This document shows positions 16,491-61,404 of a stretch of DNA of 64,000 nucleotides, piece after piece. This DNA comes from a virus, in IMG/VR virus record IMGVR_UViG_3300023094_000009, positions 1 to 64,000 of that record; one strand, written 5' to 3'. Made by a program: the position numbers and the translations under genes. The notes under the pieces are model-generated. The model worked only from the letters and a program-made list of their open reading frames with translations, did not search any database and was not told the origin of the DNA. Every line of letters starts with the position of its first letter. Within the stretch, counting starts at the first letter, position 1.

Positions 16491-16800
16491 AACAAAAGTC
16501 GTTTGAGCGACTATAAACAGAACTTTAGGCTCAAAGCGTAACCCTTCGGGGTTGGTAGTTACAACGGTAATTAAATAAGAAACAAATAGCATACTAAAAA
16601 CTACTGGCTTAGTCCTTGTCAATGTGAACGGGTGAAAGTAATAAGAAAGGGGTAAGAGAAAGGCTTTACAATTTGTTTCTGCATGATTGACAAAGGGATT
16701 AGATTAGTTTCAATACAACGTAATTAAAAGCGGAGTAAACACTCTAGCACGGCACAAAGAAACTGAAACAAAAGAAAATTTAAATTTTCTTCAAATATTC
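16491..16800 (+). other. gene-free segment, likely structured RNA or control region
   Basis: No convincing ORF. Inverted repeats: GTCG/CGAC hairpin (16499-16512), AACCC-TTCG-GGGTT with a UUCG tetraloop (~16541-16554), and a long-range pair CCTTGTCAAT (16614-16623) / ATTGACAA (16686-16693) enclosing ~60 bases. It contains one reverse motif copy (16750-16771). The stable tetraloop and long-range pairing favour an RNA product, perhaps the 3' part of the transcript from 16234. Confidence 0.4.
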
Positions 16801-53325: not shown

Positions 53326-53958
53326 ATGAAGTTGGAAGATATACATATCGGAGAAATTATCAAACAGGAGATAAATAAAGCAGGTATTAAAACGCCAGAA
53401 ATTTCTATGAAGCTAGATGTTACGGAAAGGTATATGTATCTTATCTATAAGAAACCGTCTATTGAAACGGCTTTGCTTGTAAAACTGTCAAACATTATTG
53501 GAGTTAATTTTTTCTCAAAATTCGAAGAGGAAATGAAACCAAAGTGTAGAAAAGACTTGGAGGAGAGAAAATTGTTTAGCGATATTTATATCCAAGGAAA
53601 ATCCAATTATAGTTTCAGCTTTCTTAAGAAATCTCCAGCAATTTATGGAATACTGAATATTCAATCTGGAAAGGTTTATATAGGATCAACCTCTAATATT
53701 AGGACAAGGGCTGGAGTTCATTTTAATAAACTGAAATCAGGTTATCACGAAAGGAAAAATATGCAAACCGATTTTAATATATTGGGATGTGATAATTTTG
53801 AAATCATCGTCTTTAAATATTGCAATAAAGAAGATTTGAGTAGGCTGGGGGAAGAGTTTTTTCAAGCATACAAAGAGAATTGCTATAATATTAGAATTCA
53901 CACTCAATCTAATAAAGGTAGTAAAGTGGCAAGTAAAAGTTTAATTAAATGGACTTAA
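53326..53958 (+). CDS. HTH-GIY-YIG homing endonuclease, 210 aa
   Basis: Residues 1-65 form an Xre/HigA-like helix-turn-helix (EIIKQEINKAGIKTPEISMK, then LDVTERYMYLI...KLSNIIGVN). Residues ~105-190 are a GIY-YIG nuclease: AIYGILNIQ, VYIGSTSNIRTRAGVH, and Glu in LGEEFFQAYK. Having the DNA-binding part N-terminal reverses the common order. Overlaps the DNA polymerase start by 10 bases, so it is probably a homing element fixed at polA. Confidence 0.85.
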   Translation: MKLEDIHIGEIIKQEINKAGIKTPEISMKLDVTERYMYLIYKKPSIETALLVKLSNIIGVNFFSKFEEEMKPKCRKDLEERKLFSDIYIQGKSNYSFSFLKKSPAIYGILNIQSGKVYIGSTSNIRTRAGVHFNKLKSGYHERKNMQTDFNILGCDNFEIIVFKYCNKEDLSRLGEEFFQAYKENCYNIRIHTQSNKGSKVASKSLIKWT

Positions 53959-55907
53959 ATAATGTGTATGTGGCTGATATTGAGACTACTGGCTTTATAG
54001 AGGAAATTAATTCCTTTGATGATCTGCATGTACTTTCTGTGGGCTATAAGAATAAAGCAGGTGAATGGCAAATTAAATCTACCAATAAACGAGAAGAAGT
54101 TCAGAAGTTTTTTGGAAATCCCGAGAATGTTGTGGTGATGCACAATGGCGCGGTCTATGACGCGAGAGTCCTTAAAAAGATGGGTATTATTATTAATGCA
54201 ACTATTATAGACAGTCTTTTTATCTCTTGGGCTTTATTTCCCGGTTTATTGAAGTATGGTTTAGAATTTTTCGGACAAACTTACGGGGTTCAAAAGGTCT
54301 CAATTTCTGATTGGACTTCTCTTACTTATGCACAGTATGTTGAAAGATGTGAGGAGGACGTAAAAATTAATATATTTTTGTGGGAAGATTTACTCAAGAA
54401 ATACAGGACTTTATATGAAGATGAACCTGAAAAAATAATTTCTAACATCAAATTCCTAACAGAAATTTCTATAATTGCTGCCAATCAAGAAGATTATGGT
54501 ATTAAATTAGACATAGCTAAATGTAGAATCCATTTAAAGATACTAGAAGATCTCGCAGAAGGTAAAATAAAAGAGTTGAAAGAGATTATGCCAAAGATAC
54601 CTATTAAGGTTCTTAAACGTAAGCCTACGACCTTATATAAGAAAAACGGGGATTTATCCTTAGCAGGGGAGAATTGGGTGATGATGTTGAAGCAACTTGA
54701 TCTTCCTATGGACTATGATGATGAAATAGAGGTAATTAGGGGATTTAGCGAGCCCAACCCTGTCTCAATTTCACAGGTCAAAAATTATCTACACACGCTC
54801 GGATGGTGTCCTGAAATATACGTAGAGTCTATCAACACTAAAGGTGAAATTAATAAAGTAGAACAAATCAAGGATAAAGAGAAAAATCTTTGTAAAAGTG
54901 TCCTAAAACTGGTAGAAAAAGAGCCTAAACTTATAGCTTTAAATGATCTATCGGTAATACTACATAGAAAATCCTATTTAGAGAGTTTCCTGAAGAATGT
55001 TAGAGAGGATGGTTATATAACTGCCCGAGTTGGTGGCTTAACAAATACGATTCGCTTAAAACACAGAAACTTAGTAAATTTACCCTCTGTCTCTGCCCCT
55101 TATGGTGAGTATGTTAGAAGTGTACTATCTTGTGAAGATGATGAAGTTTTTGTAGGATCGGATCTGTCCTCTCTTGAGAATTACACAAGAACCCACTTTA
55201 TTGCACCATTTCAGCCAGAAGCTATTGATATCCTTTCTGATAAAGAGTACGATAGCCACACCCAATTGGCAATTTTTGCAGGTATGATGACAGAAAACGA
55301 GGAGAAGTTTTTTAAGTGGTTCAAAGCAGATGGTAAGGATTTAACTAAGCTACCAGAAGAATTCCAAACATTATCTTCTGAGGATATTAAAAGTAAGTAT
55401 GAGGCATTGGGAACAATAAGACAGAAAGCCAAAACTACCTCATATTCAGCACTTTATGGAATCGGCAAGGCTAAATTAGCTAGAGAGTTAAAAATTAGTG
55501 AGAAAGAAGCTCAACAACTTTTGGAGGGCTACTGGCGATTGAATCAAGCTGTGAAAACCTTTGTAGAGACTTGTGAAGTTAAAACTATTGAAGGTCAAAT
55601 GTGGGTTAGGAATCCTCTAAATAGATTCTGGTACTCATTACGCAAAGAGTCAGATATCTTTTCTACGGTGAATCAAGGGTGCGGAAGTTACCTCCACATT
55701 TTGTGGTGTAGCAACCTAAGAAAACTAGGTATTAAAATCAGAGGTAATTTTCATGATGAGATTGTAACTACTTGTAAATCTGAACATTATGAAGAAACTA
55801 AAGCGTTATTGTTAAAAGCAATAGATTTAACAAACAAACAAAGCAGAATTAGAGTACCACTAAAGATAGATATTCAGAAAGGTGGGAATTATGGAGAGGT
55901 TCATTAA
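53949..55907 (+). CDS. polA: family A DNA polymerase with 3'-5' exonuclease domain
   Basis: Replicative polymerase. Exonuclease: D10/E12 in VADIETTG, HNGAVYDARVL (~63-75), YVERCEEDVKINIFLW (~130-145). Polymerase: motif A DLSSLENYTR near 404, motif B with K, then Tyr at +4 and YG in AKTTSYSALYG near 494, motif C HDEIVTT near 601. The Tyr at the motif-B +4 position is as in T7 polymerase, not Phe as in E. coli Pol I. At 652 residues it has no 5' nuclease domain. Flanked on both sides by GIY-YIG genes; reading frame uninterrupted. Confidence 0.95.
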   Translation: MDLNNVYVADIETTGFIEEINSFDDLHVLSVGYKNKAGEWQIKSTNKREEVQKFFGNPENVVVMHNGAVYDARVLKKMGIIINATIIDSLFISWALFPGLLKYGLEFFGQTYGVQKVSISDWTSLTYAQYVERCEEDVKINIFLWEDLLKKYRTLYEDEPEKIISNIKFLTEISIIAANQEDYGIKLDIAKCRIHLKILEDLAEGKIKELKEIMPKIPIKVLKRKPTTLYKKNGDLSLAGENWVMMLKQLDLPMDYDDEIEVIRGFSEPNPVSISQVKNYLHTLGWCPEIYVESINTKGEINKVEQIKDKEKNLCKSVLKLVEKEPKLIALNDLSVILHRKSYLESFLKNVREDGYITARVGGLTNTIRLKHRNLVNLPSVSAPYGEYVRSVLSCEDDEVFVGSDLSSLENYTRTHFIAPFQPEAIDILSDKEYDSHTQLAIFAGMMTENEEKFFKWFKADGKDLTKLPEEFQTLSSEDIKSKYEALGTIRQKAKTTSYSALYGIGKAKLARELKISEKEAQQLLEGYWRLNQAVKTFVETCEVKTIEGQMWVRNPLNRFWYSLRKESDIFSTVNQGCGSYLHILWCSNLRKLGIKIRGNFHDEIVTTCKSEHYEETKALLLKAIDLTNKQSRIRVPLKIDIQKGGNYGEVH

Positions 55908-55953
55908 TATGTACAAAAAAATACATAAATTTTCGTAAGCAAAATTTTGGAGT

Positions 55954-55961
55954 TACCTTTA
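55954..55961 (+). promoter_or_regulatory. -7 box TACCTTTA
   Basis: TACCTTTA in GAGTTACCTTTATAGG; no good -33 element at N20-22, so the promoter is weaker or phage-factor dependent. Points into the structured region at 55967. Confidence 0.45.
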
Positions 55962-55966
55962 TAGGG

Positions 55967-56075
55967 TTATTAGTCTCAAACTATAAGGATAACATCTAAA
56001 ATATTGAATTGTCCCTTGAAAGGAGAATGTTGCTTGAGACTCAACATTTAATTTTTAAGGGACTTTTTATTTTAT
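55967..56075 (+). ncRNA. structured leader/attenuator or small RNA with pseudoknot
   Basis: Three pairings interlock. (1) GTCCCTTGAAA (56011-56021) with TTTTAAGGGAC (56053-56063), 11 bp with one G-U. (2) Inside it, AATGTTG (56026-56032) with CAACATT (56042-56048), 9-base loop. (3) That loop, CTTGAGACT, is complementary over 8 bases to AGTCTCAA at 55972-55979. The outer stem plus following T-rich tract is a terminator. Upstream pairing with the loop could stabilise or disrupt it, hence a possible switch ahead of the endonuclease at 56082. No ORF within. Confidence 0.6.
56011..56073 (+). terminator. branched intrinsic terminator/attenuator
   Basis: The 11-bp outer stem described above, with an inner hairpin, followed by TTTTTATTTT. 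It ends nine bases before the GTG of the endonuclease gene. Confidence 0.7.
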
Positions 56076-56081
56076 TTAATT

Positions 56082-57281
56082 GTGAATAAAAAAGTAACCA
56101 CAGAAGATTTTATAGCTAAGGCTAAACTTGTACATAAAGATAAATATGATTACTCAAAAGCTATTTACACTAGAGGTCGGGACTTTATAATAATAATTTG
56201 CCCTATTCATCATACCTTTCAACAACGTGCAAATTGCCACACAAGTGGTAAGGGGTGTAAAGAATGTGCAGTAATTAATAGAGCAAAGAAGAAAACTTAT
56301 TCGAAGGAGAAGTTTGTAGAAAAAGCTAATAAAGTATTTGGTAATAAATACAGTTATGAGAATACAGTTTATAAGGATTCTAAATCTCTAGTTACAATAA
56401 ATTGCCCAATTCATGGAGAATTCAACAAGAACGCCGCTCATCACTTAAACGGTCAAGGTTGTCTCACTTGCTCCAACTTAAATCATAAGGGAACTTTTAA
56501 AGCTAAGGATACAGAATACTTCAAATCTAAAGCCTATCAAATACATGGCGATAAGTATGATTACTCTCTATCTGAATACAAAGCTGCTATCCAACCTATA
56601 AAGATAATATGTAAGATTCATGGGGAATTTATGCAAACTCCTCATACCCATTTAAACGGTTCTGGTTGTAATGAATGTGGAATCTTAGCAACCACTCATA
56701 AAAGAAGGTCAACTTTGGATTATTTTATACTAAAAGCTAATGAAGTACATACTAATAAGTATGTCTATGACAATGTTATTTACAAGAATACAAACACCAA
56801 AATTGAAATCACATGTCCTTCACATGGAAATTTTAAACAAACAGGAGGATCACATTTATCTGGAAATGGTTGTCCAATTTGTGCCCGAGAGGCTACAACC
56901 AGATACAGCCAAGAAAATCCACTAGGTTGGTCATACTCAAAATGGCTTGAAACTTCAAAAACTTCTTCTGATTTTGATTCGTTCAAATTGTATATAATAA
57001 GGTGTTGGGATGAAAATGAAGAATTCTATAAGATAGGTAGAACTTTCAAAAAAATTAAAAAGAGGTTTGATGATAAGAGAACTATGCCTTACAATTATGA
57101 AATCTCTTATGAATTCTGTGCAGATGGTTCTTATATTTGTGATTTAGAAGTAAAACTAAAGAAAACTTACAAAAAGGTTAAGTATGTACCTTCTATACAA
57201 TTCTCAGGATCTACTGAATGTTTCACCACTGATCTACCGATTGCAGAAATTATTGCAAAGTACTTTGAAGTTCAAAGTTGA
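56082..57281 (+). CDS. four-zinc-module GIY-YIG homing endonuclease
   Basis: GTG start directly after a terminator. Four tandem modules of ~60-65 residues (around 7-63, 73-130, 143-200, 212-267) each read F...A...H..KY.YS...Y......I.I.CP.HG.F.......H..G.GC..C, binding zinc through C-x2-H and C-x2-C. The C-terminal domain (~300-395) is a GIY-YIG variant: FKLYIIRC, FYKIGRTFKKIKKRF, then Glu/Thr in STECF. The module array probably reads an extended DNA target. Sits just after polA. Confidence 0.8.
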   Translation: MNKKVTTEDFIAKAKLVHKDKYDYSKAIYTRGRDFIIIICPIHHTFQQRANCHTSGKGCKECAVINRAKKKTYSKEKFVEKANKVFGNKYSYENTVYKDSKSLVTINCPIHGEFNKNAAHHLNGQGCLTCSNLNHKGTFKAKDTEYFKSKAYQIHGDKYDYSLSEYKAAIQPIKIICKIHGEFMQTPHTHLNGSGCNECGILATTHKRRSTLDYFILKANEVHTNKYVYDNVIYKNTNTKIEITCPSHGNFKQTGGSHLSGNGCPICAREATTRYSQENPLGWSYSKWLETSKTSSDFDSFKLYIIRCWDENEEFYKIGRTFKKIKKRFDDKRTMPYNYEISYEFCADGSYICDLEVKLKKTYKKVKYVPSIQFSGSTECFTTDLPIAEIIAKYFEVQS

Positions 57282-60434: not shown

Positions 60435-60679
60435 GCGAAATACTAGATAATGAGGTTTTTAATCTTAAAACAAAAGAAGAGTTTAAAGAATTGGAGAAGA
60501 CAAGGTTTTCCAATAATTTTTCTAAGTCAACTCTAAATTTTATGTATGGTAATTTTAAGGAAGATACTTATTTTTACTTTTACGAGCCAGAAACCTACTA
60601 CATAATTAGTGGTGATAAAGCTGACAAATATGGATTTGAGAAGAGAACTTTTGAAGACTTTAAAAAGAAATATTTATGA
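60431..60679 (+). CDS. hypothetical protein, 82 aa
   Basis: ATGA overlap. Charged helix, then Tyr/Phe-rich strands (TYFYFYEPETYYIISGDKA). ATGA overlap with the endonuclease gene. Confidence 0.55.
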   Translation: MSEILDNEVFNLKTKEEFKELEKTRFSNNFSKSTLNFMYGNFKEDTYFYFYEPETYYIISGDKADKYGFEKRTFEDFKKKYL

Positions 60680-61404
60680 ACAAGAAGAAAACAACAGAAG
60701 AGTTCATCAAAGATGCTTGTAAAGTACATGGCGACAAATACCTGTATGATAAAGTCATGTACGAAGGTTGGGATAAAAAAGTAACCATAGTGTGTAAGTC
60801 CCATTCAGAATTTGTGCAATCTCCAAATAGCCACCTGAATGGCGGTGGTTGTCCTGTTTGTGCTCAAATATCAAGATCCGAAGCGTATAAAAATACTATT
60901 GGAAGAAAAAAGGATAACTTTACGTATGACTTCACATCAGATACCTCTAAGGTTATACCCCTCACAGAGAAATTTTTTGCTATTGTTGACAATGAAGATT
61001 TTGATAGAGTATCAGAGCACAATTGGCATCTAAGTATTAACTACGCTTCTAATCCCAAATTAGGACTTCTTCATAGATACATACTAAATGTAAATGATCG
61101 TAAAGTCTATGTAGATCACAAGAATCACAATGGTTTTGACAACAGAAAATCAAACTTAAGGCTTTGCAGTCAGAAAGAAAACGCGTCAAATCAGTTAATA
61201 CAGAACAGAGAAAAATCAAGTATCTACAAGGGAGTGACTTGGGATAAAAGTAGGAATAAATGGGCAGGAAGGATAAAACATCATGGAAAAGGAATATTTC
61301 TAGGTCGTTTTTTAAATGAGATAGACGCAGCTTTAGCTTATGATGTGAAAGCTAAAGAGTTGTTTGGTGAATTTGCATGGTTAAATATAAAAGATTCAGA
61401 ATGA
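60676..61404 (+). CDS. zinc-module HNH-AP2 homing endonuclease
   Basis: Residues ~6-60 hold one zinc module of the type found at 26996 and 56082 (EEFIKDACKVHGDKYLYD ... CKSHSEFVQSPNSHLNG, then GCPVC). Residues ~140-170 form the HNH core (YVDHKNHNGFDNRKSNLRLC). Residues ~180-235 form an AP2 DNA-binding domain (SSIYKGVTWDKSRNKWAGRI...GRF...AALAYD). HNH-AP2 fusion is a classic homing layout; the added N-terminal module is a domain swap from the GIY-YIG types nearby. ATGA overlaps on both sides. Confidence 0.9.
   Translation: MNKKKTTEEFIKDACKVHGDKYLYDKVMYEGWDKKVTIVCKSHSEFVQSPNSHLNGGGCPVCAQISRSEAYKNTIGRKKDNFTYDFTSDTSKVIPLTEKFFAIVDNEDFDRVSEHNWHLSINYASNPKLGLLHRYILNVNDRKVYVDHKNHNGFDNRKSNLRLCSQKENASNQLIQNREKSSIYKGVTWDKSRNKWAGRIKHHGKGIFLGRFLNEIDAALAYDVKAKELFGEFAWLNIKDSE

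Follow-up and report, generated by a model that had tools for sequence, protein, structure and literature searches.

Kissing-loop RNAs, such as antisense RNA pairs and purine riboswitch-type contacts, carry Watson-Crick-complementary hairpin loops on side-by-side stems of similar length. The put RNAs of phage HK022, which serve in antitermination, are leader RNAs with two adjacent stem-loops near the promoter. Upstream of T4-type homing endonuclease genes (I-TevI, segB, mobE, and seg43(25)), a stable RNA hairpin keeps expression low, and mobE and segF also carry terminators (PMC2988022). Here we describe a locus that resembles these systems in part. It lies in an AT-rich gap of 174 nt that separates the stop codon of a DNA polymerase gene (55907) from the GTG start codon of an endonuclease gene (56082) in a 64,000-nucleotide stretch of viral DNA (the window; positions 1 to 64,000 of IMG/VR record IMGVR_UViG_3300023094_000009) belonging to a 141-kb genome. 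A G+C stem base followed by a U tract, in a hairpin between a presumed promoter and a start codon, is shared with intrinsic terminators and attenuator leaders; unlike in those, the terminator loop can form 8-9 bp with the loop of the preceding hairpin, and no exclusive antiterminator was found. With the T4-type genes the locus shares a stable hairpin closely preceding a phage homing endonuclease gene, whereas here there is no Shine-Dalgarno sequence to sequester, two hairpins form a kissing layout, and this arrangement also occurs ahead of genes that do not encode endonucleases. Unlike the contacts of known kissing-loop RNAs, the one predicted here is intramolecular, spans 8-9 bp, has a terminator hairpin as one partner, and is not enclosed by a P1 stem; unlike in the put RNAs, the second stem-loop is followed by a U tract and the two loops are complementary.

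In the predicted folds, the plus-strand RNA of the gap (element 1) forms two long side-by-side hairpins, H1 and H2, arranged as follows.

53949-55907, plus strand: family A DNA polymerase gene (polA), complete, the upstream gene
55926-55933, plus strand: -7-like promoter box TAAATTTT, one mismatch to the Bacteroidota consensus TAnnTTTG, with no matching -33 element; weak and tentative
55944-56002 (approximate), plus strand: hairpin H1, about 20 bp interrupted by two single-base bulges, with a loop of 16 nt
55972-55979, plus strand: kissing stretch AGTCTCAA in the H1 loop, unpaired probability 0.85-0.99
56003-56010, plus strand: short linker between H1 and H2
56011-56063, plus strand: terminator-like hairpin H2, in which a GA/AA internal loop separates an outer stem of 12 bp from an inner stem of 8 bp capped by a loop of 9 nt
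56034-56041, plus strand: kissing stretch TTGAGACT in the H2 loop, exact complement of 55972-55979, unpaired probability 0.93-0.99
56064-56077, plus strand: U tract TTTTTATTTTATTT (T5AT4AT3), directly 3' of the H2 stem
56082-57281, plus strand: free-standing endonuclease gene (399 aa, GTG start) encoding treble-clef zinc modules and, at the C terminus, a GIY-YIG/T5orf172-like domain that matched weakly and below the cut-off

The outer stem of H2 pairs GTCCCTTGAAAG (56011-56022) with TTTTTAAGGGAC (56052-56063) in 12 bp, including two G-U pairs, and has GTCCC/GGGAC at its base. Its inner stem joins 56025-56032 to 56042-56049 in 8 bp, and its apical loop CTTGAGACT (56033-56041) offers 8 Watson-Crick pairs to AGTCTCAA, the sequence presented by the H1 loop (also given as AGUCUCAA). 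The first-pass annotation had listed a terminator stem, an inner hairpin, and an 8-base complementarity between the apical loop and an upstream leader; all of these are present, but the stems are 12 and 8 bp rather than 11 and 7 bp. It had also taken the complementary leader for a single-stranded flank, whereas AGTCTCAA sits in the 16-nt loop of H1, an overlooked hairpin that begins upstream of 55954, where the annotated feature had started. Because an H-type pseudoknot requires a loop to pair with a single-stranded flank, and the partner here lies in the loop of another hairpin, the predicted arrangement is a kissing complex and not the pseudoknot that had been proposed: two mutually complementary hairpin loops share 8 pairs, and both are exposed in the fold. 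Folded alone, H1 reached -16.2 kcal/mol (z -3.5) and H2 -21.7 kcal/mol, and the loop-loop duplex amounted to -9.2 to -10.6 kcal/mol. Inside H2, a reading frame of 20 aa (56027-56089, MLLETQHLIFKGLFILFNCE) was weighed as a possible leader peptide or toxin and dropped, because its purine-rich box is only 1 nt from the ATG and the frame lies within the stem.

The earlier suggestion that the three features together exceed chance held up. The fold of element 1 had a z of -5.3, and none of 200 dinucleotide shuffles was equally stable. It ranked 5th among 7058 plus-strand segments of 136 nt in the 141-kb genome and was the most stable of the 791 plus-strand segments with a GC content of 30% or less. 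The minus strand of the same DNA ranked 776th, at -27.8 kcal/mol vs -41.3 kcal/mol for the plus strand; since the plus strand is far more stable, the structure appears to be built for plus-strand RNA. In a minimum-energy fold scan of the 141 kb, element 1 was the sole locus with two hairpin loops sharing at least 8 Watson-Crick pairs. Ten simulated genomes yielded one loop pair of at least 8 and no such pair whose fold reached -28 kcal/mol, and a single weak loop pair of at least 8 (-9.3) was present in 0.79 Mb of further DNA, most of it from phages. A function for the complementarity between the two loops is very likely.

The ranking of stable low-GC segments also pointed to position 136741 of the same genome, and we searched by architecture with a strict descriptor. 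On the plus strand of this genome it matched 55957-56063, 136746-136866, and one site antisense within a gene (G000:C1:96361-96473), the last probably by chance; the minus strand gave no matches. Across 200 simulated genomes there was 1 match, and the only match in another 2.53 Mb of sequence, scanned on both strands, was at 95495-95591 of csAssE-Sib, a gut phage that is the nearest named relative as judged from the capsid and portal proteins (about 30% identity). The one strict match in a further 0.65 Mb was a tRNA-gene artefact and was rejected, and a looser descriptor gave matches near the background level. Two sister elements were thereby obtained.

136746-136866, plus strand, same genome, outside the window (L099:12746-12866): element 2, with the same two-hairpin kissing layout
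About 95495-95591 of csAssE-Sib, OR575929.1 (L127:16295-16391): element 3, with the same layout

The first hairpin of element 2 displays AATAGCCGA, which is perfectly complementary to UCGGCUAUU; its terminator-like hairpin, AATCCCCTTTA...TTAGAGGGGATT, carries TCGGCTATT in the loop and is followed by T-rich sequence, and the downstream gene is BT4734/PriCT-1 primase-like. Element 3 has the perfectly complementary pair AGAUCCCAC/GUGGGAUCU: its H1 displays AGATCCCAC, its terminator loop is GTGGGATCT, and a T8 tract and an antirepressor gene follow. The kissing stretches of elements 1, 2, and 3 (AGUCUCAA, AAUAGCCGA, and AGAUCCCAC, each with its perfect complement) are separated from their partners by 62, 67, and 61 nt, with kissing energies of -9.2, -11.8, and -14.3 kcal/mol and costs of 0, 3.3, and 5.9 kcal/mol for holding the stretches open. 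The start codons (GTG in element 1, ATG in the other two) follow the terminator stem at distances of 18, 11, and 13 nt, too short for the downstream gene to have a promoter to itself. All three elements have a G+C-rich stem base followed by a U tract. Elements 2 and 3 also carry perfect Bacteroidota-type -7 boxes (TACTTTTG; TTTG-N19-TATCTTTG in element 3), placed 7 and 12 nt before the first hairpin, respectively, and have a 13-nt linker, TTGAAAGATATTT, in common; the linker of element 1 is merely reminiscent of it, in that AAAATATTGAA beside it bears a loose likeness to GAAAGATATTT of the shared linker. The fold of element 3 was moderately good (z -1.8).

Outside the linker there is little sequence conservation among the three elements, and MAFFT gave no structural alignment of them; they count as analogous loci, identified through their architecture, and not as homologues in an alignment. 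As the descriptor itself demands complementarity, the weight of the comparison rests on the controls and on the terminator, the start-codon distance, the promoter box, and the linker. Compensatory change in other loci, which the first-pass annotation had called for, was encountered by an unexpected route: two further loci have a perfect 9-bp loop-loop match in wholly different letters. In our comparison, three differing sequences that keep their complementarity constitute the strongest argument that the loop contact matters.

Searches by sequence gave no homologues. Element 1 had none by blastn in phages and plasmids, its exact patterns had none in IMG/VR, and no Rfam 15 family exceeded the gathering threshold. 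A one-sequence covariance model found no match beyond chance in 340 kb plus 15 whole records, and its weak matches in the own genome and in PA-SR01 were set aside as chance. Loci reached through polA (nearest 40-41% identity) and through neighbors of endonucleases held no comparable structure, and searching IMG/VR with the major capsid protein and the next gene returned no whole-phage relatives. Scanning IMG/VR for promoter box, linker, and T tract yielded no convincing new copy among the 80 loci listed; across 393 genomes of one bacterial order the same pattern behaved as expected by chance, with no copy in the 30 loci examined.

The genome around the locus offers some further observations. 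Shine-Dalgarno sequences occur in 5 of its 82 genes, and its structural proteins are closest to those of csAssE-Sib and the Cellulophaga phages phi17:2/phi4:1; on these two grounds the host is probably a member of Bacteroidota. The endonuclease family, with treble-clef zinc modules and a C-terminal GIY-YIG/T5orf172-like part, is very common in phages, and an AlphaFold model of the endonuclease alone was uninformative (pLDDT 33). Another GIY-YIG endonuclease gene with an N-terminal HTH-like part (53326-53958) overlaps the start of polA, so that polA has endonuclease genes on both sides, and an open reading frame at 60676-61404 joins one zinc module of the endonuclease family to HNH_3 and AP2 domains. 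The intergenic motif TTTTCAGTTnTTTTTnnCCGGCGAAA, which appears promoter-like or protein-binding, recurs in both orientations, often just before start codons, with some copies inside open reading frames (57290, 57380, 1360, 10189, 18420, 23499, 31418, 39764, 59774, and others; in the opposite orientation, for example, 7594, 15451, and 52537); two copies precede the gene that follows the endonuclease, and none precedes the endonuclease. The plus strand also encodes a Pistol self-cleaving ribozyme at 16497-16560 (Rfam, 66.6 bits), and a TnpB-like transposase gene (phrog_506) lies amid phage structural genes on the minus strand of L098:5334-6437.

We lean toward the reading that element 1 is a leader RNA, roughly 110-130 nt long, with an intrinsic terminator at its 3' end; the loop-loop contact would clamp this terminator and restrain the downstream gene. 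Its computed basis consists of the anatomy, the strand-specific stability, the perfect complementarity, and the recurrence of the layout with unrelated letters at two other start codons; from there we infer the production of the RNA, its termination, the promotion of termination by the contact, and a relieving factor. In folds of successive prefixes, H1 was complete by 56004 and untouched afterwards, TTGAGACT was available from 56041, and the terminator closed at 56060-56064. Since TTGAGACT is out before H2 closes, the H1 loop can capture the future H2 loop first. On the emerging RNA, H1 would fold first and present its kissing stretch, and the complementary stretch of H2, emerging ahead of the 3' arm, would be captured by the H1 loop. 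The terminator hairpin would then close around the captured stretch, and RNA polymerase would halt at the U tract. The downstream gene, here the endonuclease, would be expressed by read-through only, and the contact would set a low or conditional level, which might rise when termination is relieved, be it by a protein, a competing RNA, or an altered polymerase. Folding also leaves room for the opposite effect, in which early capture would delay the closure of H2 and bring about antitermination.

A mutually exclusive antiterminator is not supported: the forced nested helix between leader and loop reached -20.6 kcal/mol vs -41.3 kcal/mol, and in the terminator fold both stretches remain unpaired without energetic cost. 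The loop contact is thus compatible with the terminator and does not compete with it; hence no switch can be seen. The regulatory switch proposed earlier therefore survives as a structured, terminator-like RNA directly before the endonuclease start but not as a pair of mutually exclusive folds, and the modeled element is an intrinsic terminator by its sequence definition and not a two-state attenuator.

All three elements are located directly before a start codon, and convincing promoter boxes accompany the two sister elements only; no promoter with at most one mismatch overall was found upstream of element 1. Because its own promoter-like box is weak, element 1 may be no more than the 3' terminus of the polA transcript. 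An unlikely alternative, in line with the free small RNA of the first-pass annotation, is a self-standing small RNA gene with its own promoter, a compact two-hairpin kissing body, and its own terminator, which would act in trans or simply be stable, the downstream gene being incidental. The promoter-like boxes a few nucleotides before H1 in the sister elements and the strong terminator at the end suit such a gene, and element 1 could also be a 3'-UTR-derived RNA of polA. A start codon 11-18 nt past the stem in three of three cases is nevertheless unexpected for an unlinked RNA, and the longest complement elsewhere in the own genome is 13 nt, in one place, at the AT-rich end of H2. It is also rather improbable that an ordinary intrinsic terminator of polA stands beside an unrelated upstream hairpin, with a coincidental loop match and an endonuclease gene inserted behind it. 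Some relatives of the endonuclease do sit just behind terminators (L083, L089, and L091), and an 8-nt loop match arises about once per 10 simulated genomes, but the layout recurs twice before start codons with a 9-nt loop match and near-equal spacing, and simulation produced the strict layout only at the rate of 1 in 200 genomes given above.

Control of translation, in which hairpins near the start codon would bar ribosomes on read-through or polA-initiated RNA, has precedents in I-TevI-III, segB, and Aeh1 mobE (PMC2988022). In read-through RNA, weak pairing between the U tract and the A-rich gene start can leave the GTG at a small loop (-3.3 kcal/mol), which is compatible with such control. 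We consider it very unlikely here, as there is no Shine-Dalgarno sequence to hide, 18 nt separate the end of H2 from the start codon, the layout is terminator-like, and no late promoter was found inside the hairpin. Finally, the first-pass annotation had envisaged an RNA partner of the mobile element and covarying homologues upstream of other zinc-module GIY-YIG genes. Immediate adjacency to the endonuclease favored a companion RNA of such a cassette, but upstream of 26 endonuclease relatives there was either no leader or a plain terminator, with a loop complementarity never above 4, and the sister elements precede primase and antirepressor genes. This tempting tie to the mobile endonuclease is thereby corrected, and the companion RNA is largely refuted and barely credible.

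The leader with a loop-clamped terminator thus remains the reading that we prefer, and the layout probably represents a real, undescribed type of RNA gene-control leader. More tentatively, the three elements may belong to a class of phage leader RNAs not described before, occurring here in a phage with Bacteroidota-phage features and in csAssE-Sib. In this class, the 5' hairpin and the terminator hairpin would join through a loop-loop helix that controls termination before early or mobile genes, the kissing letters differing from leader to leader. With three independent-looking copies that differ in these letters, the idea is directly testable by compensatory mutations. Gene regulation in Bacteroidota phages, including crAss-like phages, is poorly known, and because their genomes lack Shine-Dalgarno signals, RNA leaders are a likely layer of control. 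A terminator clamped by a kissing contact, or dependent on one, would make a compact switch that is easy to reprogram, and, if this is true, each gene could own an address for a competing RNA or protein.
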